64,000 nucleotides of DNA, taken from the NCBI GenBank assembly GCA_027214385.1, contig JAPVXR010000001.1:124001-188000 (forward strand). Reading direction: 5' to 3'. The translations under genes and the position numbers were made by a program. Below are positions 8,537 through 44,708 of the stretch, one piece after another. How positions within the stretch are numbered: the stretch's first letter is position 1; each line of letters opens with the position of its first letter. This DNA comes from Cryomorphaceae bacterium 1068. GTDB taxonomy: Bacteria > Bacteroidota > Bacteroidia > Flavobacteriales_D > Cryomorphaceae. A model generated the notes under the pieces. The model saw only the letters and a program-made list of their open reading frames with translations. It made no database searches and was not told the origin of the DNA.

Positions 8537-8691
8537 AAGGATAAGTTTGGTTAATAAAACACTGGCTATGTCGGCCTCAGCTACTACTAGTTAGTGATTT
8601 TTTCTAAAAAAGTCAAGCGTTTTAACAATCTCATTAATCTTAACTGTGTGATATATAGAGTGTTTATGCCAGCTGTCAAAAAGTGACACCC

Positions 8692-9170
8692 ATGCACTTC
8701 GAAATACTCACCACACAATATGCCCTACGTACTACACACTACGAGCTACGCACTACGCCCTGCGAGCTACGAAATACTACCACCGACTATCGACTACCGA
8801 CCATCGACTACCACCTCCACCTTCTCGATACATTTTGCCCCTTCGTCGCAAAACACTCGAAGTGACAACGCTTTTCATTCTTAACTGCCCACTGCCCACT
8901 GCCCACTGACCACTGACCACTGACTACTGCCCACCGACCACCAACCATCGACTACCGACTTCGCCCTACGAGCTACGAGCTACGCACTACGTCCTACGAG
9001 CTACGAAATACTACCACCAACCATCGACCATCGACTACCACCTCCACCTTCTCGATACATTTTGCCCCTTCATCGCAAAACACTCGAAGTGACAACGCTT
9101 TTCATTCTTAACAGCCCACTGCCCACTGCCCACTGCCCACTGCCCACTGACCACTGACCTCTGACCACCT
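8692..9170. repeat. Heptanucleotide repeat block 1 with two core palindromes
   Basis: Long run of degenerate 7-bp units in three flavours: CACTACG/AGCTACG/CCCTACG, ACTACCG/ACTATCG/ACCATCG, and CCCACTG/ACCACTG/ACTACTG. The same order occurs twice and ends each time in a conserved core at 8809-8885 and 9038-9112, in which TCGATACATTTTGC and GCAAAACACTCGA can pair as an imperfect hairpin around CCCCTTCGTC. The core is followed by GTGACAACGC and TTTTCATTCTTAAC, then by CCCACTG units. No protein-coding capacity beyond chance. Confidence 0.9.
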
Positions 9171-9186
9171 TTCTTCCCCTATACCT

Positions 9187-9213
9187 ATCCCTAACCAATC
9201 CCTAACCAATCCC
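9187..9213 (+). repeat. 11-bp tandem repeat
   Basis: Unit ATCCCTAACCA occurs at 9187-9197 and 9198-9208 with a partial third copy, in a C-rich stretch (TATCCC/ACCAATCCC) running from about 9180 to 9240. It lies between repeat block 1 and the promoter region of the next gene. Confidence 0.7.
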
Positions 9214-9345
9214 ATACCTATCCCTATCCAACTCCTATTCATTTCCATTTTCAATCCCGTTTTTTCCCGGGTCATCCCAAAATTTCCCGCGATTCCAAAT
9301 AATTAGACACCTTTCACGATCATTTCCCAACTTTCCCGCAACTGC

Positions 9346-9377
9346 TTGTTTAGCATGTGTGTAGCGCCCCATATTTG
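9346..9377 (+). promoter_or_regulatory. Candidate Bacteroidota-type promoter for the phage-like trio
   Basis: TTG at 9346-9348, 21 nt, then CATATTTG at 9370-9377, which matches the TAnnTTTG -7 element at all but the first base. Transcription would begin near 9384 and give a leader of about 46 nt before the ATG at 9430, which supports that start over the frame opening at 9346. Confidence 0.4.
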
Positions 9378-9429
9378 TCTTGTTGGCAAAGCGCCAACCT
9401 TGATTAATGACAATTTAAAACCTAAATAT

Positions 9430-10185
9430 ATGGGACGTCAATCAGGAGTGATCAGGATCCGAGGAAAAGTCGGAAACCTGACCTTCACACAATCAGAAGA
9501 CGGACACGAAGTGCGCCTCAGTACCTCCCTCAACGGAGATAAAATGCGCAAAGACCGCCGTTTCATTAGAACGCGTGAAAATTGGGCCGAATTTGCCCGA
9601 GCCGGAAAAGCTGCAAAGCTCATCCGCCAGGCATTCGCCATTCAAACGCGTCAAATTTCAGATCGTCGTGGGTACCCGCGACTCGTAACTCAAACCTTGA
9701 AGGTCGTGAAATCCGACCCCGTCAACGGAAGGGGAGAGCGAGTCATAACCCAAGGCGACTTCAATTACCTCTTGGGGTATGAATTCAATCAACGTCAAAC
9801 CATGTCAGGGGTGCTCAAAGTACCCGTGGATGTCGCAATAGATCCTGCCGCCGGCACCGTCAACATCGACCTCCCCGAAATGCTGCCCGAAGTCGGGGTA
9901 GCTGCACCTGAAGGAACAACCCACATCCGCCTCGCCGCGGCTGCCGCTGAACTCGATTGGGAAAACCTCGTGTTCACAAACGATGTCGTCGAATCGACCG
10001 ACATCCTCTACGGCAACCAAACCGAAGCACCGCAAACCCTCAGCTTAACTCTTCCTGCGGGAAGCACGCATACGCTGGCGGTAGCACTGGGTGTGTGGTT
10101 CTACCAAGAGGTAAACGGACAATTGTACATCCTCAATGATGGAGTGAAAAACGCCATGGCCCTCGTGGGCATCGATAACGCATAG
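9430..10185 (+). CDS. Conserved Bacteroidota protein of phage-like module (structural-type, function unknown)
   Basis: 251 residues from ATG 9430 (MGRQSGVIRIRGKVGNLTF). The N-terminal signature MxRQxGxIxxxGxxGxxTF, then RTRENWAEFARAGKAAKLIRQAF, matches a widespread uncharacterised Bacteroidota family as I remember it (R-T-R-E-N-x-x-E-F-x-x-A-G-K-A). The second half is beta-rich (DPAAGTVNIDLPEMLPEVG, LSLTLPAGSTHTLAVALGVWFY) and Ala/Gly rich, like a shell or fibre protein. There is no signal peptide. It is followed after 3 nt by a DUF5675 gene and then a holin-sized membrane protein, so a virion-like or secreted-particle role is plausible but unproven. The open frame extends to 9346, but that overlaps the promoter candidate. 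Confidence 0.75.
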   Translation: MGRQSGVIRIRGKVGNLTFTQSEDGHEVRLSTSLNGDKMRKDRRFIRTRENWAEFARAGKAAKLIRQAFAIQTRQISDRRGYPRLVTQTLKVVKSDPVNGRGERVITQGDFNYLLGYEFNQRQTMSGVLKVPVDVAIDPAAGTVNIDLPEMLPEVGVAAPEGTTHIRLAAAAAELDWENLVFTNDVVESTDILYGNQTEAPQTLSLTLPAGSTHTLAVALGVWFYQEVNGQLYILNDGVKNAMALVGIDNA

Positions 10186-10188
10186 GCC

Positions 10189-10584
10189 ATGAGGTTCAAC
10201 CTTATCCGAATATACGGTAACCAAGGGACAAACGGCTACCTCATCGCTGAAGGCAAACTGGTCTGCAAGACCATCGAACTGCCCTGGCGCATGAACCAAC
10301 CCAATGTCTCTTGCATTCCCGAAGGACAGTACATCCTGAAGGCGCGTTACAGCCCGCGATTCGGACACTGCGTGGAAGTGGTAAATGTTCCCAACCGATC
10401 CCATATCCTCCTTCATCCGGCAAATAATGCTCTGCGAGAACTTCGCGGTTGCATCGCACCGGTGTCAGAGCTTACAGGGCAAGGAACCGGACTTCGCTCC
10501 CGCGCAGCTACGCAACGATTCCTTGAGGTGTTCAACCGCCTCAAGGCTAATGGGAATAGTTTAATCTTAAACATTCATACATGA
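10189..10584 (+). CDS. DUF5675 family protein
   Basis: 131 residues covering a complete DUF5675 domain. Visible motifs: RIYGNQGTNGYL at the N terminus, ELPWRMNQPNVSCIPEGQY near residue 30, and the C-terminal block SHILLHPANNALRELRGCIAP with His72, His76, Arg86 and Cys88. The H...GC arrangement recalls cysteine L,D-transpeptidase-like or cell-wall enzymes, but that activity is not established for DUF5675. The family is common in phages and phage-like loci. It starts 3 nt after the preceding gene and its TGA overlaps the next ATG (ATGA, 10581-10584), so the three genes form one operon. There is no signal peptide; if it reaches the cell wall it needs the neighbouring membrane protein or lysis. 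Confidence 0.85.
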   Translation: MRFNLIRIYGNQGTNGYLIAEGKLVCKTIELPWRMNQPNVSCIPEGQYILKARYSPRFGHCVEVVNVPNRSHILLHPANNALRELRGCIAPVSELTGQGTGLRSRAATQRFLEVFNRLKANGNSLILNIHT

Positions 10585-10805
10585 AAAAGAGCGAAAAAAT
10601 GAATTTGGGCCAAAGGCTTTTTAGCAAAACTCCCAAATTCTTCCGCATAATCCGCAATGTCGGACTGGCTTTAATAGCCGCCGGTGGAGCGGTCCTTACG
10701 GCGCCCGTATCCCTACCTGCCTTGGTCTCCACGGCAGCAGGTTACGTGGCGGTAACGGGTGGCGTCCTCACAGCAGTGTCGCAAGCCACTGTAGATGGCG
10801 AATAA
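10581..10805 (+). CDS. Small membrane protein, holin-like
   Basis: 74 residues. A basic N terminus (KKSEKMNLGQRLFSKTPKFFRIIRN) is followed by two hydrophobic Ala/Gly/Val-rich segments (GLALIAAGGAVLTAP and VSTAAGYVAVTGGVLTAV) with a Pro-containing turn, the size and topology of many phage holins. It is coupled to DUF5675 by ATGA and followed 23 nt later by a strong terminator. Partnership of a cell-wall-type enzyme with a two-segment membrane protein suggests a release cassette (inference). A structural membrane peptide is the alternative. Confidence 0.65.
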   Translation: MKKSEKMNLGQRLFSKTPKFFRIIRNVGLALIAAGGAVLTAPVSLPALVSTAAGYVAVTGGVLTAVSQATVDGE

Positions 10806-10828
10806 CCATCCCTCACGCTTAATCCAAG

Positions 10829-10859
10829 CCCCGAGCGCAAGCTCGGGGTTTTTCTTTTT
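10829..10859 (+). terminator. Rho-independent terminator of the phage-like trio
   Basis: Perfect 8-bp stem CCCCGAGC (10829-10836), loop GCAA, GCTCGGGG (10841-10848), followed by TTTTTCTTTTTATT. It closes the three-gene operon. Confidence 0.9.
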
Positions 10860-10902
10860 ATTGTTCTTTTTGACCCTTTAAAGACGCTTAGAGTTAAATC
10901 AT

Positions 10903-11198
10903 CTAAAGTCCATAAGCCCAGCCGCCACGGATCGGACGTCGTGCAGCAATACCGGTAAAAAGGGTACCACCATCAGCTGTAATCGACCAACGAAATAATC
11001 CTCTTCAAAAAGAGTTGCCCCGAAAAGTGCGCGTGTCCGTTTTTAGCCGGGGTTTTGCGCTACTCGCTTTGCCCAATATGATAAGATTTGATCACGCAAA
11101 AATTGCCTTTCGACGTCCTTGATTTTTACTCCACTTTTTATCAAGAAAAAGGGGAAGAGATTAGCTATGTCACGATTTTCACGAAAAGTAAAAAATCA
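10903..11198 (-). pseudogene. Possible decayed coding remnants
   Basis: Two stop-bounded minus-strand frames without starts read like protein. One, ending at the stop 10903-10905, contains WSITADGGTLFTGIAARRP then IRGGWAYGL. A neighbouring frame just upstream reads GATLFEEDYFVGR, suggesting a frameshift. The second, ending at 11043-11045, contains IKSGVKIKDVERQFLRD then QILSYWAKRVAQNPG. Neither has a recognisable family. They may be fragments of lost genes or chance. Confidence 0.3.
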
Positions 11199-11550
11199 TC
11201 CCACAGCTAAAACAGTAGTGAATCTATATCTTCCTTTGGAGAATTGAATAAAACGTTCTCACACGGCGTAGCAAGTAGCTCAGGTGGCTTCATTGTAGCC
11301 TGCGGAGCTGAAGACGTAGATGGATTTAAAAATGAGCTCGCGAAGCCCAAATCACCAACTTTCATTCGAATTGTCACTATAAGAAAATCACCTAGTAGCT
11401 AAAGGCTAGTGCCTCCCCACGCACCATCTCGATTACCTCCCGAAGGTCGGTGAGAGCGCTCGTGCCTCACTAAGTTCAACCTCCTTCGTTGGCCACTCGA
11501 TGTGACAACGCTGCTCACTTTTCGTTTTTCACTCTTCACTTCTCACTCAA
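11199..11550. other. Intergenic stretch without clear features
   Basis: I see no gene. A degraded version of the repeat core is visible at about 11495-11520 (CACTCGATGTGACAACGCTG), leading into repeat block 2. Confidence 0.5.
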
Positions 11551-12155
11551 AACTGCCCACTTCCCAAGTCAAACTTCAACAATAATCACCCTTAAAACCG
11601 CGATTCGCTGGTAGCTGAAAGCCGACAGCCCACAGCTAAAACACTTTTCGCTCATCTCTACCGACTACGCCCTACGATCTACGCACTACGCACTACGAGC
11701 TACGCACTGCGCCCTACGAGCTACGAAATACTACCACCGACTATCTACCATCGACCACCACCTCCACCTTCTCGATACATTTTACCCCTTCGTCGCAAAA
11801 CACTCGAAGTGACAACGCTTTTCATTCTTAACAGCCCACTGCCCACTGCCCACTGCCCACTGACTACTGACCACCAACCACCGACCACCGACTACCGACA
11901 ACGCCCTACGCACTACGAGCTACGAAATACTACCACCGACTATCTACCATCGACTACCACCTCCACCTTCTCGATACATTTTGCCCCTTCGTCGCAAAAC
12001 ACTCGAAGTGACAACGCTTTTCATTCTTAACAGCCCACTGCCCACTGCCCACTGACTACTGCCCACCAACCGCCGTCCACCGACTACCGACAACCCCCTA
12101 CGAATCTCACACTACGATCTACGCACTACGCACTACGAATTACGCACCACCGACC
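11551..12155. repeat. Heptanucleotide repeat block 2 with two core palindromes
   Basis: Starts with a 117-bp composite unit (11551-11667) that also occurs at 14110-14226 and includes AGCTGAA/AGCCGAC heptamers. It continues with CACTACG/AGCTACG, ACTATCT/ACCATCG and CCCACTG heptamers around two core copies at 11758-11832 and 11957-12030. The order heptamers-core-CCCACTG units is the same as in block 1. It ends about 60 bp before the next secreted-protein gene. Confidence 0.9.
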
Positions 12156-12214
12156 AAGAACCTCTCTACCTAATTTTCCTTACCTTTAGAAACCAATCAC
12201 TTAACAACCAACCC

Positions 12215-13819
12215 ATGAAATGCTTACCTGCTATTTCCCTGCTATTCCTACTTTTCAATTTTTCCTTATTCGCCCAAGAGCTTACTCCCTGCGAAGAGCC
12301 GTATCCACAAGTTACCAATCTCTCAGTGGCTTTCGGAGAAGGAGCATTGGTCCTCAATTGGGCACCAATTATTGGTTCGCAAGCATGCCGAATCCAAATT
12401 AGACCCTTTGGCTCATCTGAATCACAGTATACCTTAATAGAGGGAGCTGATTTAGGCACGTATTCCATCTCAGGCGACGTCCTGCTCTTTCAAACTCAAT
12501 ATGAAGCCCGTGTGTCCTGCGGTTGTCCGGGAGATCCTCCTGTTTTTGGTCCTTACTCAAGCACCGTGGCATTCTGGACGAGCACAGTCGGTCAAATCGT
12601 GCCTTGTGCTGATCCTTATCCGGTGGTATCCGGTTTGATCGCTTCTCCTACCGAAGAGGCAGACGGCATTCACCTGATGTGGAATCCCATCTCCAAATCA
12701 AAAGGGTGCCGAATCGAATTTCAACCGGTCGACGGTCCATTGGAAGCAATGCAAGTATTGGGTACGGAACTCTCTGAGTATGTGATACCCGGATCTCAAT
12801 TGCTGGCAGACTTTGATTACAACTGGCGGATACGCTGTGGATGTAGTTTCGATCCCTTGGTGCAGGGGCCGTGGTCATTACCTGCTTTTTTCAATACCGG
12901 AGAGGTAGGCGACTTAGCGGGTTTCATGCCAAAACCGAAGTTTAAAGCCACCCCTCAGGCACCTCTTACGGGTGCTGAGGTTCAGTTTAAGGACGTGTCC
13001 CCGTTTGAACCTACATCCTGGTTGTGGGATTTTGGCGACGGCACCACATCTACGGAAGCGGACCCTGCGCATACATACGCCTCTCCCGGAGCCTACAATG
13101 TATCGCTTACCGTAGCGAATGAGTTTGGCGAGAACACCAGCTCGATTGAAGAATTTATTCAAGTATTCGACCCTGTTTGTCCTCAGTCGGTCACCGATCT
13201 TGATGGAAATCAATACACGGTAGTGCAAATAGGAAACGCCTGCTGGACTGGTGAAAACCTCAAGGTAACGCAGTTTAACAATGGCGATGAAATTCCGAAT
13301 CTCGAACCGGCAAGTGAGTGGCTCTCGACCACCGAAGTGGCTTATTGCAACTTCAACAATGACCAGGCCCTTGGAGATTCCACCGGAAGACACTACAATG
13401 GCTATGTGGTCTTGGATGAGCGAAATGTATGCCCCGCAGGTTGGCATGTTTCAGCTGAATCCGACTGGCTTACAATGGAAGAGGTCATGGGTATGCCCAC
13501 TCAGGAATTGACCACCGACGGTCCTGAACGCGGAAGAGGCCGAAACATAGGAGGTCAATTAAAGGCCGATCAATTCTGGTCCCCATTCAATATAGGAGGA
13601 GCTGACACCTATGGATTCGGAGCTTTGCCTCTCGGCTACCGCTTTTTCGTATTTATCGATTTTGTGGGATTACAAACTACTGCGCGCTTTCATGTCCCCA
13701 ATGACCTCGGTTCGGATCCCGAGCTTCACTACCGCGGTTTCTCATACTTATCTATGGGTATCTCCAAGATCTCGGCACAATTGGGAGAAGGCATGAGCAT
13801 CCGTTGTGTTCAGGACTAG
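12215..13819 (+). CDS. Secreted protein with Fn3-like repeats, PKD domain and FISUMP domain
   Basis: 534 residues with a clear signal peptide (CLPAISLLFLLFNFSLFAQ). Two tandem fibronectin-III-like modules each begin PCxxPYPxVxxL and end with a CGCxxDP...GPxS segment (about residues 25-125 and 130-225). A PKD domain follows (SWLWDFGDGTTSTEADPAHTY, about 245-315). The C-terminal 200 residues form a FISUMP (Fibrobacter succinogenes major paralogous) domain: DLDGNQYTVVQIGNACWTGENLK, DSTGRHYN, RNVCPAGWHV, DTYGFGALPLGYR and MSIRCVQD at the end. No T9SS sorting domain is visible. Likely a cell-surface or extracellular adhesion or binding protein. The gene is flanked by repeat blocks 2 and 3. Confidence 0.88.
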   Translation: MKCLPAISLLFLLFNFSLFAQELTPCEEPYPQVTNLSVAFGEGALVLNWAPIIGSQACRIQIRPFGSSESQYTLIEGADLGTYSISGDVLLFQTQYEARVSCGCPGDPPVFGPYSSTVAFWTSTVGQIVPCADPYPVVSGLIASPTEEADGIHLMWNPISKSKGCRIEFQPVDGPLEAMQVLGTELSEYVIPGSQLLADFDYNWRIRCGCSFDPLVQGPWSLPAFFNTGEVGDLAGFMPKPKFKATPQAPLTGAEVQFKDVSPFEPTSWLWDFGDGTTSTEADPAHTYASPGAYNVSLTVANEFGENTSSIEEFIQVFDPVCPQSVTDLDGNQYTVVQIGNACWTGENLKVTQFNNGDEIPNLEPASEWLSTTEVAYCNFNNDQALGDSTGRHYNGYVVLDERNVCPAGWHVSAESDWLTMEEVMGMPTQELTTDGPERGRGRNIGGQLKADQFWSPFNIGGADTYGFGALPLGYRFFVFIDFVGLQTTARFHVPNDLGSDPELHYRGFSYLSMGISKISAQLGEGMSIRCVQD

Positions 13820-14109
13820 GGTTTTCATCCCACATCCGCTTTATTAATTTTCAGGCGTTCCCGCTTTCGCGGAAAGGGGTGCCTGATACCCACGTCCTAC
13901 ACGTCCTTTCCCCCATTCGTGTTCATTCGTGTCTATCCGTGGATAAACTTTAACGAGCTCTAGCGAGTCTAGCCAGGCTCAGTGTATCCCTCCCAGCTAA
14001 GGACTAAGTCGGATGCAGGAAAGGTTACTACCGAACATACTGCCAATACAAAACACAAAATACGCCCTGCTCACTGCTAACTACCGGCTACCGACTACCG
14101 TCCATCCAT
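13820..14109. repeat. Intergenic repeats: hairpin and 10-bp tandem repeat
   Basis: Contains an inverted repeat AGGC...CCGC-TTTC-GCGG...GCCT (about 13853-13883), which may act as terminator of the preceding gene although no T run follows. A 10-bp period repeat ATTCGTGTTC/ATTCGTGTCT/ATCCGTGGAT lies at 13915-13944. Heptamers begin again near 14060 (ACTACCG/GCTACCG). Confidence 0.6.
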
Positions 14110-14272
14110 AACTGCCCACTTCCCAAATCAAACCTCAACTCTAATCACCTTTAAAACCGTGATTCGCAGATAGCCGGAAGCCGACCGCGGGAAGCCAAAA
14201 CACTTTTCGCTTTTCTCTACCGACTACCGACTACCGACTACCGACTACCGACCATCGACCATCGACAACTCC
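14110..14272. repeat. Heptanucleotide repeat block 3
   Basis: Second copy of the 117-bp composite unit (14110-14226), diverged from 11551-11667 mainly by point changes, followed by pure CGACTAC/ACCATCG heptamers to about 14272. No core palindrome is present here. A small perfect hairpin GCGCAA-AACG-TTGCGC lies at 14368-14383, just upstream of the next gene. Confidence 0.85.
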
Positions 14273-14426
14273 CCAACTCCATTCCTCCCAGCCACTTACC
14301 AAACCTCCACTAAAAACACTTCCAAACATTCGAAACCCCACTGTTTTCTCCGCGTATAATCTCCTTCGCGCAAAACGTTGCGCCTCTATTGCCTTCCTTT
14401 TTGAGTTAGAACTAAAAACCCATTTT

Positions 14427-17400
14427 ATGGTAAGAAATCTACAGTTCATTCTAACTCCCCTTATCCTAAGTACAACCTTTTCCCTTTCGGCCCAAAACAG
14501 CGGCTGCGAAGGTTTCAGAACCCAAACCCAAGGTGGTTGGGGATCATCGGCCAATGGGAATAATCCCGGGGCTTATCGTGACGCTCACTTTGACGATGCA
14601 TTTCCCGATGGAATCACCCTTGGTTGCGATTATGTCGCGGAGTTTGAAACCTCTGCCAATGTGGAGGCTTTTTTGCCTTCCGGCGGAACGGCAAGATCAC
14701 TCGAGTCTGATCTTTTAAATCCCACCGACTACGGAAACGTTCTCGCGGGACAACTGCTCGCACTTACCCTCAGCGTGGGATTTGATGCTAATGACGCCGA
14801 CTTCTCTACCTCGAGCATACTCTTGGGCGACCTGATTGTAAACTCAGGTACCTTCGAAGGGTACAGCGTTTCGGAAATCCTCGAATTCGGAAATCAAATC
14901 CTCGGTGGATGTGAAACGGATTTTTCCGCTTCCCAGATCAATTCGGTCCTCAGCTCTATCAACGAAAACTACGTGGACGGATCGTCCAACAGTGGTGTTC
15001 TCGATTGTCCCGAGGAAGAACTTTCCTGTGCCCTCGACCTTTCGGGGATGTCTACTGAGTGTACGCAAAACAATACGTACTTTCTGACGGTCAATATCAC
15101 GGGCGCCAATGGCTCCTTTCAGGTGGTATCGAATGATGCACTTTCCATCGAGCCCGCTTTTCTCTGCTTTTCCGAGATAAGCGATAACCCGTCGGAGAAT
15201 GTGATCAACGTTTCGTTGGAATTTCCGCTGGGCGCTGATTACAACTTTAGTGTGGTTTCTGCCGAGAACCCCGATTGCGATGCGTCGGCCAATGTGGATT
15301 GTCAACTCGACAATATCTCAGGGGTTGCCCCGGAATGCTGCACCCTTACCATCGAGTGCGACGACGCTGATCAGATCATTTATTCGTGCATTAGCGATAT
15401 TCCCGATGCTGATACCAATATTCCCTACACTTCAGAGGGGTGCGGAGAAGTGAGTATTCAGGTATCGGAAACCACCCAAGGTAACGGGTGCCAGAGCAAC
15501 CCTTTGGTGCTGACCCGTACCTATACCGTTACCAATGGGACGGACATGCAATCGTGTACACAAACCTTTATGGTGATTGACGATGAGGTGCCGGTAATCA
15601 CTTGTCCTCCCGATCAAAATGCTACTTGCAGTGCATTTATCGAGCCTGACCAGTATGCCACGGCTACGGACAATTGCGACGATGAGGTAACCATTACCTA
15701 CCAAAACGGACCGAGCTCCGGATGTGGCTTGTTCATTCGAACCTGGATAGCCACCGACGATTGTGGAAACAGCGCTTACTGCTACCAAAATGTATACGTG
15801 GATGACACGACCGGGCCCCAAATTGCGGGGTTGACGGATGTGATTGTCGATTGCGGTACCAATTTGGATCCGTTTTTTGTAGGAGGTCCTTTTATCTCCG
15901 ACGCCTGTTCTGAATTTGAATTTTTCTACACGGACAGTGAGCCCGTAGTGGAGGAGTGCAGCACGACCATAACCCGCATATGGACGGCTACCGATGCTTG
16001 TGGAAACACATCGACGGCCGAACAGCAGATTACCGAAACCGACTTGAGTGCCCCCGTCCTTTACGGTGTGCCCGGCAATCAATTTTTTCAGTGTGAGGAA
16101 ATCCCTGAGGTTCCCGAAGTCTATGCCGTAGACTTCTGTAGCGGCGATACCGTGGATGTCGAAATGGAGGAAACCATTGCCGACGAGGGATGCCGCAAAA
16201 CCATACAGCGAACATTTACGGCCACCGACAATTGTGACAATAGCAATAGCATCAGCTACACCATCACCATTGAAGATACGCAGGGACCACAATTGACTTG
16301 TCCCGAAGATGTGCTCTTAACTTGTGGCGACGGGAACATTGATCCTGCGGAAACGGGACAGGCTGAGGCCCTGGACGCCTGCAGCGAAAACTTTGTGACC
16401 ATTACTTTTGACGACAGTGAATACCAAGCCAATACTTGTCCGCCGAGAATTATACGGACATGGACTGCAGTAGACACTTGTGGAAATGCGAGCAACTGCG
16501 TGCAACTCATTCTTTTCGACGATCAGGAAGCACCTTCCATCGATTGCTTGGATGATATAACCATCAATTGTTCGGAAGCGACCACCGATCCTGAGTTTAC
16601 GGGAACTCCTGCAGCTGAAGATGCCTGCAGTGAAGTGACGGTGACCTATGCCGACGGTCCTTTTGACGGGAGTTGTCCTGCCTCGTTCGTTAGAACATGG
16701 GAGGCTTCCGATGCCTGTGGAAATGCATCGTATTGCTACCAAGTGATCACGGTGATCAGTGAAGAGGCACCCACATTGGTATGCCCACCTGAGGCTACGG
16801 TTTCTTGCGGAGCCAGCTTTGAGCCTTATAATACGGGGATGGCTACCGTGACGGATCAGTGCCTCGATGTAACACTGACCTATACGGATACGGACTTAAT
16901 CGGCGATTGCGAAAAGCAATTTACCCGTACCTGGATAGCTACTGACGTTTGTGGAAATACTTCTTCTTGCGATCAATTGATCATTGTGGTCGATCAGATG
17001 AATCCTTTTATCACCTGTCCGCCGACGGCCACCGTTGAGTGCGGTGGCAATACCGATCCATCGGTGTTGGGCGAAGCTACGGCAGTGGACTACTGCTCGG
17101 CGGTGGAGGTGACCTATGCGGATGAAGAAAACTTTGACTCATGTACACCATCAATTCTGAGAACCTGGACGGCTGTTGATGTCTGTGGAAATACGCATAG
17201 CTGCGTGCAGGTGATTGAAATCATCGGTGGGGGAGTTGTTGATATAACCTGTCCCGATGACGTGACCATTGCCTGTGATGCCGATACTGATCCAGTAAGT
17301 ACGGGAACGGCTACGGTGATTGCCAATTGTGCGGATGTGGCTTTGACATACGTCGATAGCATTCTACCTGCCGATGAAACATCGGGCGGTGACTGCGGAC

Positions 17401-18275
17401 AGTTACGCACCCAGACTCAAGGTGGATGGGGATCGCGTGCCAATGGAAATAATCCCGGTACCTATAGAGATGCAAATTTTGAAGCTGCATTTCCGGAAGG
17501 ATTGGTCATAGGATGTGAGTATACTCTCACACTTACAAGTTCTGCCGCAGTGGAGGCTTTTCTTCCCAACGGCGGTCCGGTAACGGTATTGACGGAAGAT
17601 CTGGTTGATCCAACTGACTTCCGCACTGTGCTCGCCGGTCAATTGGTAGCAGCTACTCTTAGCGTGGGATTTGACGCCAACGATGAGGACTTTTCTGAAT
17701 CGGTAGCGAATCTGGGCGATTATACCCTTTCTTCGGGACCGATGGTTGGTTTGTCCGTTTCTGAGGTCATCGCCGAAGCCAATGCTTTTATCGGAGGATG
17801 CGAAAGCGCCTACTCGGGATCGGAACTGAATACGACTCTCACAGCCATCAATGAAAGTTATGTGGATGGAAACGGAAGCAGCGGAACATTGAATTGCCCC
17901 GAGACCACAGGAACTGGCGATTGCCTCGTGATCTTCCGAACATGGACAGCCACCGATCTTTGCGGAAATGCCGTGTCGTGTACACAGGTCATAACGCAGA
18001 GCAGCGAGCTCGACGAACTCTTGACAAGTGATGCTCAAATGATGGCCTATCCGTCGCCTGCTACTTCTACGGTCAATTTCACCATGGAACGCAGCGTGTA
18101 CAATTCAGGAACGTTGACCATTGCCAATCTTTCGGGAATAGTCGTTCACACGGAGACTGTACCATCCGGAGTTCAACGCATTGAGTTGGATTTGTCGGGC
18201 TTTGTTGAGGGGGTTTATGTGGTAAACTTCCGTTCGAAGAGCGGTGCATACACCACCAAATTTGTGAAAATGTAA
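14427..18275 (+). CDS. Giant secreted HYR-repeat protein with T9SS sorting domain
   Basis: 1282 residues, signal peptide at the N terminus (MVRNLQFILTPLILSTTFSL then SAQ). A roughly 165-residue domain beginning FRTQTQGGWGSSANGNNPG and ending SGVLDCPE occurs after the signal peptide. It recurs near residues 990-1160 (LRTQTQGGWGSRANGNNPG to SGTLNCPE). Between the copies are about nine HYR-like repeats of 75-85 residues, each with TCP...(A/S)C, a DxC centre, and (F/R)TWxAxDxCGNxxxC. The C terminus (MAYPSPATSTVNFTM to YTTKFVKM) is a type A T9SS sorting domain. It is probably exported across the outer membrane and anchored at the surface, possibly for adhesion or gliding. The abundant Cys pairs suggest disulphides. 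Repeat identity makes it prone to length change. Confidence 0.9.
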   Translation: MVRNLQFILTPLILSTTFSLSAQNSGCEGFRTQTQGGWGSSANGNNPGAYRDAHFDDAFPDGITLGCDYVAEFETSANVEAFLPSGGTARSLESDLLNPTDYGNVLAGQLLALTLSVGFDANDADFSTSSILLGDLIVNSGTFEGYSVSEILEFGNQILGGCETDFSASQINSVLSSINENYVDGSSNSGVLDCPEEELSCALDLSGMSTECTQNNTYFLTVNITGANGSFQVVSNDALSIEPAFLCFSEISDNPSENVINVSLEFPLGADYNFSVVSAENPDCDASANVDCQLDNISGVAPECCTLTIECDDADQIIYSCISDIPDADTNIPYTSEGCGEVSIQVSETTQGNGCQSNPLVLTRTYTVTNGTDMQSCTQTFMVIDDEVPVITCPPDQNATCSAFIEPDQYATATDNCDDEVTITYQNGPSSGCGLFIRTWIATDDCGNSAYCYQNVYVDDTTGPQIAGLTDVIVDCGTNLDPFFVGGPFISDACSEFEFFYTDSEPVVEECSTTITRIWTATDACGNTSTAEQQITETDLSAPVLYGVPGNQFFQCEEIPEVPEVYAVDFCSGDTVDVEMEETIADEGCRKTIQRTFTATDNCDNSNSISYTITIEDTQGPQLTCPEDVLLTCGDGNIDPAETGQAEALDACSENFVTITFDDSEYQANTCPPRIIRTWTAVDTCGNASNCVQLILFDDQEAPSIDCLDDITINCSEATTDPEFTGTPAAEDACSEVTVTYADGPFDGSCPASFVRTWEASDACGNASYCYQVITVISEEAPTLVCPPEATVSCGASFEPYNTGMATVTDQCLDVTLTYTDTDLIGDCEKQFTRTWIATDVCGNTSSCDQLIIVVDQMNPFITCPPTATVECGGNTDPSVLGEATAVDYCSAVEVTYADEENFDSCTPSILRTWTAVDVCGNTHSCVQVIEIIGGGVVDITCPDDVTIACDADTDPVSTGTATVIANCADVALTYVDSILPADETSGGDCGQLRTQTQGGWGSRANGNNPGTYRDANFEAAFPEGLVIGCEYTLTLTSSAAVEAFLPNGGPVTVLTEDLVDPTDFRTVLAGQLVAATLSVGFDANDEDFSESVANLGDYTLSSGPMVGLSVSEVIAEANAFIGGCESAYSGSELNTTLTAINESYVDGNGSSGTLNCPETTGTGDCLVIFRTWTATDLCGNAVSCTQVITQSSELDELLTSDAQMMAYPSPATSTVNFTMERSVYNSGTLTIANLSGIVVHTETVPSGVQRIELDLSGFVEGVYVVNFRSKSGAYTTKFVKM

Positions 18276-18302
18276 AAAGCCCATAAGTGCACATGAATAA
18301 GC

Positions 18303-18340
18303 AAGCTTCAAGTCGGAATACCCGATTTGAAGCTTTTTTT
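18303..18340 (+). terminator. Rho-independent terminator
   Basis: AAGCTTCAAGTCGG (18303-18316) pairs with CCGATTTGAAGCTT (18322-18335) with one G-U pair and is followed by TTTTTT. It terminates the HYR gene. Confidence 0.88.
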
Positions 18341-18589
18341 GTTTGGTGACTAAGCACGCTCTTGGATTCAACTTTTGAATGAAGTACAGATCACCCATTA
18401 ACCCATGCCATCAATAGGCAGGTACACTTCTACTCCGCTGGCGGAGGTGGATTTTCAGAAAAGCACTCAATCTGACGGCGGTCTCTGTCTCCCTTTGGAG
18501 GCGATGTGCTGAGCATGTCTAAGTAGAGTGGCAATTTCCGTGTAAACGTCAATTGACGAGGGAGGAAGTATTTAACCTCCCAATCACGC
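18341..18589. other. Intergenic region with short palindromes
   Basis: No gene seen. Contains CTCCGC-TGG-CGGAG (about 18435-18448), a perfect 12-bp palindrome CGTCAATTGACG (18547-18558) and GGAGG...CCTCC shortly after. Confidence 0.5.
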
Positions 18590-18743
18590 CCTGCACCCTA
18601 CACCCTAAGAATTACGACCACCGACTATCGACTATCTACCATAGACTACCACCACCACCTTCTCGATACATTTTGCTCCTTCGTCGCAAAACACTCGAAG
18701 TGACAACGCTTCTCTTACTAAATTGACTATCGACCACCAACTC
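18590..18743. repeat. Heptanucleotide repeat block 4 with one core palindrome
   Basis: Heptamers CACCCTA, then ACTATCG/ACTATCT, leading to the fifth core copy at about 18646-18712. The 3' half is altered (CTTCTCTTACTAAA) but TCGATACATTTTGC and GCAAAACACTCGAAGTGACAA (split here: GCAAAACACTCGA, AGTGACAA) are intact. Further ACTATCG/ACCACCA units run to the stop codon of the regulator gene on the minus strand. Confidence 0.88.
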
Positions 18744-19508
18744 TCAAATCCAATGCCCCGTCAAAGCCACCTTAAGCGCCTCCAAAGAGCTCTTCGCATT
18801 CGTTTTTTCCAAGATGTTCTTGCGGTGGATGTTGACCGTATGCTTCGAGATCTCCAATTTCTCAGCTATTTCTACCGAGTTTAATCCGTCGGCCATGGCA
18901 GCTAATACCTCTCTTTCGCGTTCGCTCAGAGGCGATTCTCCCGAAGTGTAAGAATTGTCCTCTTTAACGTTGTAGAAAGAAGGCTCACCATCAAGGCCGA
19001 TTAGATTCAGCTGCATATGGGTATCCGTTTTCAGGTGGGTGATATCCGTCAAGACGGCGAAGGTTCGGATCAGAGCACCGTCATCTTCGTTTTGAAGAGT
19101 CATGACTTGGTGCAAAAGTCGCTTGTAATTGCCTTTACCATCCTTGATGCGGTAATCGTAAGAAACTTTGTATTTAACTAGTTTCTCAGGAGGTATGGTA
19201 GGAAGGAAAGTAAGTAGAGTACCCTCAAAACGCATAAAGTTTTTCAGGTCATCCGGGTGCATGTTTTCAATTATATAAGTAAGACTGAATGCTTTCGGAT
19301 CAATGGATAGAACATCTTTGGTTCCTGCGCTGCAATACTCCATTTCCTGATTAGGGAAAGAATAGATCAAGAAAAAGTAATCTCCGATGTGGAAGGTGTT
19401 CATCAGAAACTCGCTCAATTCCACCTCACCGTCAAATTTCTTTGCCTCTCGGTTTTTAGAGCCGCTTCTGTATAACTCTCTCGCTTGATTTAAAATATCT
19501 TCTTTCAT
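18744..19508 (-). CDS. PAS-like/LuxR-type HTH regulator
   Basis: 254 residues. The N-terminal 150 residues form a PAS-like sensor (GDYFFLIYSFPNQEMEYCSAG, then IENMHPDDLKNFM, a hallmark of PAS folds, and TFAVLTDIT). The C-terminal 60 residues are a classical LuxR/GerE HTH: LSEREREVLAAMADGLNSVEIAEKL, SKHTVNIHRKNILEK, NAKSSLEAL. It has no receiver domain, so it is a one-component regulator or a partner of a separate sensor. It is the second gene of a pair. Its ATG (19508) is the last of four ATGs in an 8-bp tandem repeat linking it to the paralogue upstream. The stop abuts repeat block 4. Confidence 0.88.
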   Translation of the reverse strand: MKEDILNQARELYRSGSKNREAKKFDGEVELSEFLMNTFHIGDYFFLIYSFPNQEMEYCSAGTKDVLSIDPKAFSLTYIIENMHPDDLKNFMRFEGTLLTFLPTIPPEKLVKYKVSYDYRIKDGKGNYKRLLHQVMTLQNEDDGALIRTFAVLTDITHLKTDTHMQLNLIGLDGEPSFYNVKEDNSYTSGESPLSEREREVLAAMADGLNSVEIAEKLEISKHTVNIHRKNILEKTNAKSSLEALKVALTGHWI

Positions 19509-19534
19509 TCTTTCATTCTTTCATTCTTTCATTC
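19505..19534 (-). repeat. Octamer tandem repeat forming a chain of ATGA stop/start sites
   Basis: Unit ATGAAAGA on the minus strand, four copies with ATGs at 19532, 19524, 19516 and 19508. The upstream gene stops at TGA 19531-19529 overlapping the first ATG. Each of the first three ATGs reads Met-Lys-Glu-stop, with the TGA overlapping the next ATG. Only the fourth opens the regulator gene. Confidence 0.9.
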
Positions 19535-20290
19535 TTTTTTCAACCATTTGTTTTCATTGGTCATAGCCAATAGGTGAACCGTCGATTTTGCCCCTGCTTT
19601 TCTGCGGATCCGCTTTAAGTGATTATTCAATGTTTCTAAGCTGATGTGCAATTTTTGAGCCGTAAACGGTAAGTCCTTCTCCCGCATTGCCGCTTCCAAT
19701 ATTTCCAGTTCTCTCATCGTGAAATCAGGCAACTTTTCGATTTTCTTCTTTTGGCGGTAAAGCTTCTTTGACTCACCTCCGCGAAGATTTATCAGCGATA
19801 AATACTGATCGGAATTCGTTTTAATCGAGCTAATATCCGTGAAAACATAGAGGTATTCAACCTGCTGAGTATCTGTCAATCTGAGCGGCTGTGATTGAAA
19901 CATGAGTTGCTTGAACTTACCCGTTTTTGACTTCAACCTCAGATTGTACTGCGTTTTGTAGTTCCATCTTTCTTCTTCAGGAATGGATAAATAAAATCGC
20001 TCGGCCTCAGCTTCAAATTCTTCCATTACCGCTACATCGTCAGGATGAATCAAATCAAGAAGAAAATCAAAGTGGATGTCTTGGGCATCGTAGCCCAAAA
20101 CCTTCGTCACACCTTCACTGCAAACGGTAGCACGGGTAGATTCGGAAAGGACAATCAAGTAGAAGAAGTCACCCGTTTGAAACCGTTCGAGCCAAGCTTG
20201 GTGCTCTTTGATTTTTTCCGGATAGATGGATTGGTCCGATTGTAGAACCATCCACTCATTCCTACTCAAGTTGAATTTTAATTTTTCCAT
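19529..20290 (-). CDS. PAS-like regulator with degenerate LuxR-type HTH
   Basis: 253 residues, a paralogue of the following gene. The sensor half has GDFFYLIVLSESTRATVCSEG, LLDLIHPDDVAVMEEFEAEAE and YVFTDISS. The C-terminal HTH is recognisable but diverged (FTMRELEILEAAMREKDLPFTAQKLHISLETLNNHLKRI, which I read as two halves around MREKD; then AGAKSTVHLLA). The usual LuxR T-x-x-E is reduced to TMRELEIL. The pair presumably arose by duplication and may heterodimerise or respond to different cues (inference). Translationally coupled to the next gene through the octamer repeat. Confidence 0.82.
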   Translation of the reverse strand: MEKLKFNLSRNEWMVLQSDQSIYPEKIKEHQAWLERFQTGDFFYLIVLSESTRATVCSEGVTKVLGYDAQDIHFDFLLDLIHPDDVAVMEEFEAEAERFYLSIPEEERWNYKTQYNLRLKSKTGKFKQLMFQSQPLRLTDTQQVEYLYVFTDISSIKTNSDQYLSLINLRGGESKKLYRQKKKIEKLPDFTMRELEILEAAMREKDLPFTAQKLHISLETLNNHLKRIRRKAGAKSTVHLLAMTNENKWLKKE

Positions 20291-44120: not shown

Positions 44121-44705
44121 AGTTTTCAGTGAGCAGTGTACAGTGAGCAGTTTTTCAGCAAGATTACCTCAAAAGAGACTGATTCATTTTACTAATACTT
44201 TGTCACAGACGTCAATTATTTAGTTTGATTTCGCATTGTGCGAAGAGATGCACCCATCATTCTAAGTAATTCTTCCAGATCATTCAGTAATTCTTGAGCT
44301 TTCTCTTTGTCAAGCCAATCGGTGTGTCGTAATAGCATTATCCAGTACCTAGCTTCTCGACCCTCTTTGTAGGATATGCTGATTTTATGATGGAAGTCTT
44401 TTTTTGAATAGGCACCGTTTGCTTCTTCGGCATTTGCCCCTATGGATGTAGCGCTCCGAATGAGCTGTTTGGAAAGAATGAATTCTTTCTTCTCGATTAG
44501 TTGATAACCGACCTTGACAACTTTAACAGCAAATGCATAGCTCTTAGCTTTGAGTGTTCCTGTTTTCATCGTGACACATGGAATTAGTATGGGTTTATTT
44601 GAATTGCCCTCAAGATACAAATTCGCGGATTTCAACCTTTTTTTTCGTTGCCCACTGAAAACTGCTTACTTCCCACTGTACACTGAAAACTGCTCACTGA
44701 AAACT
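44121..44705. mobile_element. Inverted-repeat-bounded element carrying a four-helix-bundle gene
   Basis: A perfect 17-bp inverted repeat AGTTTTCAGTGAGCAGT: left copy 44121-44137, right copy as its complement at 44689-44705. Both ends continue inward in related heptamers (CAGTGTA/CAGTGAG on the left; CCCACTG/AAAACTG/CTCACTG on the right, about 44651-44706). The 585-bp unit contains one gene (minus strand). It sits in an operon between the ABC ATPase and neuB and so looks inserted. No transposase or target-site duplication could be identified. Confidence 0.7.
44216..44569 (-). CDS. Four-helix-bundle protein (S23/IVP-like)
   Basis: 117 residues from ATG 44569 (MKTGTLKAKSYAFAVKVVKVG); the open frame to 44635 is rejected because the extra residues are not part of the family. 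The four-helix-bundle signature is clear: LSKQLIRSATSIGANAEEANGA, then YSKKDFHHKISISYKEGREARYW (split here around the KISIS) and RTDWL-like LLNDLEELLRMMGA. The family is known from intervening sequences in 23S rRNA genes and as avd-like accessory proteins; free-standing copies are common in Bacteroidota. It is embedded in the inverted-repeat element. Confidence 0.9.
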   Translation of the reverse strand: MKTGTLKAKSYAFAVKVVKVGYQLIEKKEFILSKQLIRSATSIGANAEEANGAYSKKDFHHKISISYKEGREARYWIMLLRHTDWLDKEKAQELLNDLEELLRMMGASLRTMRNQTK

Positions 44706-44708
44706 GAC

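Follow-up and report, generated by a model that had tools for sequence, protein, structure and literature searches.

A 64,000-nucleotide stretch of the Cryomorphaceae bacterium 1068 genome (contig JAPVXR010000001.1, positions 124,001 to 188,000; hereafter the window) carries, in the spacers between its genes, runs of degenerate 7-bp units together with five copies of a palindromic core, which raises the question of whether heptamers and core form a single repeat and how each might have arisen. The original prediction had described them as one family and had named slippage and mobile palindromes among the possible origins. We find that each part is real but that they are probably two different repeats that overlap here, with slippage the best reading for the heptamers and a mobile palindrome the best for the core: comparison of the sequences makes it likely that independent, slippage-derived heptamers coincide here with an orphan palindrome that resembles the repetitive extragenic palindromes (REPs) and is partnered with a small GIY-YIG endonuclease. 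The heptamers are the less interesting half of this picture, and we therefore begin with the core and its nuclease.

The core is found in other genomes as well, a scan of species genomes returning at least 118 stretches, nearly all of them from Bacteroidota; among the stretches listed, to which the counts on core-bearing stretches given below also refer, the only other names, taken from record titles, are a Chlorobiota and a Dojkabacteria metagenome-assembled genome (L047 and L079). Read on the strand that bears its tag, the element is 5'-YGTC-A-STT-C-GAG-TG-[variable stem-loop]-GTA-TCGA-G-AAS-3'. Its arms are fixed, its inner stem varies in sequence while keeping its pairing, its foot is compensated, and the minus strand carries a YGTC tag. 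The inner segments pair over at least 5 bp in 75.5% of 196 distinct sequences versus 1.6% after shuffling, while in the foot GAAG is matched by CTTC in 169 of 178 cases and GAAC by GTTC in 90 of 92. In 251 of 270 contexts GTGAC is followed by A or G, so that the other strand opens with YGTC, and when the foot is left free in the search pattern a TGTC or CGTC tag still accompanies 39 of 59 distinct core contexts. In single-stranded DNA folds TCGA pairs with TCGA around the inner stem in all three tag strands tried; the z-scores of the four folds range from -1.8 to -3.1, and a window copy alone is therefore not strongly folded. Neighbouring cores no more than 150 bp apart (n = 110) have their tags outside in 49 pairs and inside in 29, and form direct repeats in 32, with a GAAG type joined to a GAAC type in 72 of the 78 pairs of opposite orientation. 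Strict cores occur in 27 of 295 genomes of the class. Viral contigs contained no match to the strict pattern, and a search for the arm sequences in openly licensed PubMed Central papers found nothing relevant, which is weak evidence of absence.

To identify what accompanies the core, the open reading frames (ORFs) of the listed stretches were clustered without prior choice of family. The largest cluster, 20 ORFs from 18 loci, is GIY-YIG by eye, with three members checked against Pfam; for 14 of these ORFs a core is no more than 64 bp off, and the remaining six are 0.7 to 5.4 kb away. The encoded nuclease is about 97 residues long. Structures have been solved for two of its relatives, 1zg2 and 1ywl, both UPF0213 proteins; another two matches are weak and look like chance. 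The association recurs in 295 genomes of the class that were not chosen for the core, of which 27 are core-positive and 268 core-negative: a nuclease match at E ≤ 1e-12 was found in 23 of 27 core-positive versus 123 of 268 core-negative genomes (p 8e-5), at 1e-35 in 15 versus 19 (p 2e-9), and at 1e-39 in 12 versus 4 (p 4e-11), three thresholds being given here since the last was chosen post hoc from the table. Looser cores adjoin the nuclease in two genomes counted as core-negative, G281 and G077.

The flanks of the nuclease genes point the same way: in many genera the gene has this palindrome next to it, mostly on both sides. At 30 nuclease loci, one per genome, the 500-bp flanks contain the core in 14 cases (on both sides in 11), a second palindrome, TTCGACARGCTC, on both sides in 10, a third, TTCGACTCCGCTC, in two, and none of these in four. 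Over all 46 nucleases examined, 28 have a flanking core, 23 of them on both sides, and 14 of the 28 come from loci not chosen for the core; the core pattern and the flank length differed slightly between these analyses. When no motif is named beforehand, 12-mers common to both 400-bp flanks are found around 26 of 31 nuclease genes (the 30 plus one from the strain's own genome), whereas the rate is 19 of 91 for other small ORFs, 36 of 473 for larger ones and 8.7% for 997 places picked at random.

Palindrome type tracks the nuclease tree and not the host family, more than one type being present within each of the host families f18, f22 and f23. On a tree of 31 nucleases the core label requires two changes versus a mean of 9.3 after shuffling (0 of 500 shuffles as low), and the TTCGACARGCTC label five versus 8.4 (9 of 500 as low), while the third palindrome motif, with three rows, is not clustered. 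A tree of 46 rows again gives two changes for the core, against a shuffled mean of 11.3, and joins nine of the ten TTCGACARGCTC rows to two of the third motif, a grouping with modest support (82/81); many inner branches of the nuclease tree are weak, and bootstrap values had not settled. The two main palindromes also resemble one another in design. Of 42 copies in the TTCGACARGCTC family, 39 have GTCA on the 5' side of the hairpin word at a distance of no more than 16 nt (two control words gave 3 and 2). The two sides of the 3-nt foot of this family are exact complements in 23 of 29 distinct contexts versus 15% with shuffled partners; the corresponding figures for the core family, foot left free, are 37 of 59 contexts versus 18%. 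Both families fit the plan 5'-YGTCA-NNN-Y-GAG...TCGA-R-N'N'N', with the caveat that the plan was spotted after the fact. Together, these comparisons establish a palindrome family with a covarying stem that directly flanks nuclease genes and whose type clusters on the nuclease tree.

Several observations weigh against a partnership of core and nuclease. Since the search query (A2) was derived from nucleases with flanking cores, the E-values that it gives are biased towards that clade. Four of the 27 core-positive genomes lack a nuclease match even at 1e-12, and the 123 core-negative genomes noted above have one. The best nuclease of one core-positive genome (G021) is flanked by another palindrome, and that of a second (G010) by neither an intact core nor another motif. 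Shared flank 12-mers are likewise found around 27 of 57 genes with a match to PF01797, the Pfam family, shared with IS200-type transposases, by which we traced the REP-associated tyrosine transposases (RAYTs) considered below. Seven comparisons of a core-bearing spacer with a core-less counterpart resolved the ends of the insertion in none, and we know of no GIY-YIG enzyme that joins strands. Finally, the strain's own genome contains five GIY-YIG matches, none with a core within 1.5 kb, and the sole small intact gene among them (C3) is flanked by a different palindrome, TTCGGCTCCGCTCA, 13 of whose 14 exact arms fall in the GIY-YIG region of C3. As no core-flanked nuclease was found in this genome, its own cores probably lack activity, unless a diverged enzyme acts on them. 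Two features of these genes deserve mention in their own right: the palindrome family at C3 (L251:1314-2036) is built of 85-bp tandem units and occurs almost exclusively in two clusters some 2-3 kb from each other, and C14 (L254:1501-1617) holds a GIY-YIG remnant, whose open frame of 52 codons spans half of the domain.

A partnership of palindrome and nuclease would likely operate as follows. The element would form a hairpin when single-stranded, and the nuclease would recognise its fixed GAG/TCGA internal loop together with the YGTC tag and nick nearby. GIY-YIG enzymes hydrolyse DNA, and since the joining of strands is not among their known activities, the element must depend on repair for its spread; such repair, if templated by another copy of the hairpin, would propagate the repeat. 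In its general form, the proposal is that YGTC/CGTC-tagged REPs are a class partnered with GIY-YIG endonucleases, spreading by nick and repair without a transposase while nuclease and hairpin co-diversify under the shared plan given above; we rate it about as probable as its negation. If it holds, a role may emerge for some of the small genes so far described simply as GIY-YIG nucleases, and the nuclease and its palindrome already offer a concrete pair for in vitro work.

The same pairing might instead benefit the host, the palindromes giving the nuclease useful sites in processes such as DNA uptake or repair rather than forming selfish elements. We regard this as unlikely, though the best placed of the alternatives: nuclease and palindromes are indeed widespread in Bacteroidota, and a GIY-YIG nuclease of Neisseria, taken up below, reportedly acts on repeats in single-stranded DNA, but the spread of strict cores is patchy (the 27 of 295 genomes above), copies of the palindrome occur as orphans, and two of the 30 nuclease genes (L270 and L275) are broken by internal stops.

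A second alternative places selection on the transcript, with the core acting as a terminator, a stabiliser of 3' ends or another structured RNA and the covariation reflecting RNA structure. Besides the covarying inner stem, the position of cores lends this some appeal. Of the 182 cores that have a called ORF on either side, convergent spacers hold 53 and divergent ones 20, although the two kinds of spacer make up 18% and 19% of the gap length, respectively, and in tandem spacers the median core is 98 bp from the upstream gene end versus 205 bp from the next start. Those tandem spacers, however, hold cores in both orientations (66 on the strand opposite to the genes and 43 on the same strand), 21 of 269 cores fall within called ORFs, and the type of palindrome tracks a nuclease clade. 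Rfam has no match at the core in the window or at seven plus three further loci; a sub-threshold whalefall-1 match at one locus (L015) lies away from the core. We thus consider an RNA element improbable.

Less probable still is a reading of the core as a conventional REP that owes its mobility to a RAYT, a Y1/HUH transposase. The core is palindromic, tagged at one end and found in inverted pairs, and passages of a published RAYT survey describe "atypical secondary structures" in the flanks of Bacteroidetes RAYTs of subclass 2.6 (PMC6006769). By contrast, the strain's own genome has no PF01797 match; PF01797 is not enriched with the core, being present in 20 of 27 core-positive versus 182 of 268 core-negative genomes and hence missing from seven positives; and TCTCGATAC cores were found near PF01797 genes at 0 of 30 loci and, in 14 core-positive genomes, at one of 27 loci, about 1.2 kb off, the loci examined being a part of all PF01797 matches in the 295 genomes. 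A RAYT link to the core is therefore unsupported on each of these counts: absence from the own genome, lack of enrichment and, in the loci fetched, lack of flanking cores.

We now return to the window and to how a mobile palindrome would have come to lie in heptamer tracts. All five cores are on the minus strand: copy 1 at 8821-8867, measured from the foot AAG through the tag and reading TGTC-A-CTT-C-GAGTG..TATCGA-G-AAG on that strand, copy 2 at 9048-9094, copy 3 at 11768-11814, copy 4 at 11967-12013 and copy 5 at 18659-18705. Copy 3 differs by a single inner-stem base, with TTTTAC in place of TTTTGC, and all five carry the TGTC tag. The single orientation that had been reported for them was borne out, as the opposite strand of the window holds no core and none of the five has a partner in opposite orientation. 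Whether the core recurs elsewhere in the 4.32-Mb genome (59 contigs) depends on how it is defined: the exact core with up to three mismatches gives five matches, every one inside the window, which taken literally would refute the original prediction, but with fixed arms and a free inner stem there are 14 copies, nine of them beyond the window and with different inner stems.

All five window cores share the heptamers upstream, and a 19-base downstream tail is common to cores 1-4 and diverged in core 5. Cores 1 and 2 lie in a tandem block of 227 bp (Tandem Repeats Finder, TRF: period 227, 1.9 copies) and cores 3 and 4 in one of 199 bp (period 199, 2.1 copies), lengths that differ by 28, or 4 x 7. 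Segmental duplication between spacers is also apparent from blastn, in which 11548-11689 and 14107-14248, both on the plus strand, are 81% identical over 142 bp. Because the flanks are shared, the five cores look like block duplications of a single insertion, which explains the window best: one core would have entered a heptamer tract, and tract and core would then have been copied to other spacers.

The heptamer arrays themselves are periodic. Block 1 spans 8688-9210 and contains units such as NNCTACG, CTACCGA, CCATCGA and CCCACTG along with cores 1 and 2; block 2 spans 11599-12164 with cores 3 and 4; block 3 (14158-14309, CTACCGA) is coreless; and block 4 (18580-18665), the least periodic, runs into core 5, these limits being drawn from lag-7 identity, with TRF in addition for blocks 1 to 3. 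Lag-7 identity is 0.58, 0.56, 0.59 and 0.42 in blocks 1 to 4, against shuffled means of 0.27-0.29 (sd 0.02-0.04) and maxima of 0.35-0.37 over 300 dinucleotide shuffles per block, so that all four, block 4 by the least, exceed every shuffle and the 7-bp period stands above random expectation as proposed. The further claim that phase is kept over long runs applies to blocks 1 and 2, where identity is still 0.41-0.51 at lags 21 and 28, and less so to blocks 3 and 4, where it falls to 0.36 and 0.27 at lag 28. Within block 3, periodicity is strong from about 14212 (0.78) and weak in 14110-14212 (0.46-0.48). The window holds two other short arrays: an 11-bp array, CCCTAACCAAT, immediately past block 1 at 9177-9231, and, beyond the range first described, a heptamer-like TGCACAC/TGAAAAC array in the inter-ORF gap at 44649-44706, which TRF reports with period 14 and which has a lag-7 identity of 0.57 across 44640-44706.

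Away from the window the two repeats largely part company. We checked the surroundings, to 300 bp, of 11 of the strain's own outside copies, drawn from retrieved stretches with a looser core pattern: a clear lag-7 tract (0.64) accompanies a single copy and a weaker tract (0.57) another, the rest scoring 0.38-0.52; four further heptamer stretches of this genome contain no core. In the listed stretches of other genomes TRF gives 69 intergenic rows with periods from 4 to 15, of which 36 have period 7. A core is no more than 300 bp away for 17 of these 36 arrays, in a zone that makes up 31% of intergenic bases, so the excess near cores is weak (p = 0.03). No fixed heptamer consensus was found across genera, 38 distinct unit strings falling into 35 classes after allowing for rotation and strand. 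At one convergent gene pair, cores are present in L066 and L046, and in L121 the 54-bp gap (718-771) holds CAATTAT-like heptamers and no core. In a genome of the same family (G296), the ortholog of the gene downstream of block 1 (9427-10185, plus strand, part of a 9346-10185 ORF and without Pfam match) anchors the orthologous spacer, which contains heptamer arrays of other units and no core. This suggests that the place and period of heptamers can persist while the unit turns over, favouring a mutational origin in which arrays gain and lose 7-bp steps, most likely through replication slippage. At L306:4109-4496 in that genome (C1), heptamer arrays are mixed with a GCCTAAGGCGG-type palindrome and are block-repeated there too. 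That core and heptamers form one functional unit, such as a binding array, is the least probable reading of all. In its favour, all five window cores sit in heptamer tracts, the distance from array to core is at most 10 bp in L082, L112 and L136 and at most 13 bp in L147, and there is the weak excess just described; against it, only one or two of the 11 outside copies have such a tract, and coreless heptamers occur in the four own stretches and, with different units, in the orthologous spacer.

Some neighbouring features may be recorded here. A LuxR-family (GerE) regulator (18744-19508, minus strand) has its stop 38 bp from core 5. Where it meets a second LuxR-type gene (19529-20290, also minus), a perfect 8-bp array, TTCTTTCA, runs for 4.8 copies at 19500-19537 and is a possible phase-variable site. 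The stretch 14427-18275 encodes an HYR-domain protein with a Por secretion tail, in which an N-terminal stretch near 14500 seemingly recurs near 17390 by eye.

How do these repeats compare with known systems? REPs are common small bacterial repeats. Together with bacterial interspersed mosaic elements (BIMEs) and REP doublets forming hairpins (REPINs), those that depend on RAYTs resemble the core family in being small palindromes that form inverted pairs and cluster at one enzyme gene; they differ in that the enzyme of the core is GIY-YIG, not Y1 HUH, and its tag YGTC, not GTAG or GTGG. A small GIY-YIG enzyme with a repeated genomic target has reportedly been seen in Neisseria, where Ssn is said to be a single-stranded DNA endonuclease. 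If so, it is a likeness in a different phylum with a different target, and it would lower the novelty of a nuclease-palindrome link; searches of openly licensed PubMed Central papers for GIY-YIG with REPs, dRS3, Ssn, Neisseria or Flavobacteria found nothing relevant, with a single paper, on Moraxella, mentioning both GIY-YIG and REPs, again weak evidence of absence. For the heptamers, the likening to the short tandemly repeated repetitive (STRR) sequences of cyanobacteria, which are heptanucleotide repeats, was apt, the 7-bp units of the window being tandem and intergenic. Such arrays extend to Bacteroidetes, in that passages of one survey place TAACTGA heptamer repeats in 5 Bacteroidetes and 15 Cyanobacteria (MacGregor 2015, PMC4679880); to judge from these, the window heptamers share the 7-bp period and the largely intergenic siting, and differ in having strongly degenerate units that are mixed within one array.

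The nearest relatives of the core are the CGTC-tagged REPs, described in passages of Di Nocera et al. 2013 (PMC3733652) as palindromic, extragenic and bearing an unpaired CGTC/TGTC tag at one end, present also in Bacteroidetes, forming dimers and heterodimers, and without link to a RAYT gene. The core family shares the terminal unpaired tag (YGTC in the 251 of 270 contexts above). In those same passages, CGTC-tagged REPs have 8-9 bp stems that nearly always open with A-T pairs, loops of 4-5 nt and a CCA-like tail; the core does not match such a stem and loop, since its foot is short, its internal GAG/TCGA loop fixed and its variable stem-loop separate, and at the positions examined it has no CCA-like tail or fixed base past the foot. 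CGTC-tagged REPs are there mostly head-to-head dimers; of the 110 core pairs counted above, 49 have their tags outside, 29 inside, and 32 are direct. The core family, for its part, is adjoined by a GIY-YIG gene. The passages report no dedicated transposase for CGTC-tagged REPs, and if the partnership proposed here is true, the GIY-YIG nuclease would be the enzyme that the 2013 survey lacked.

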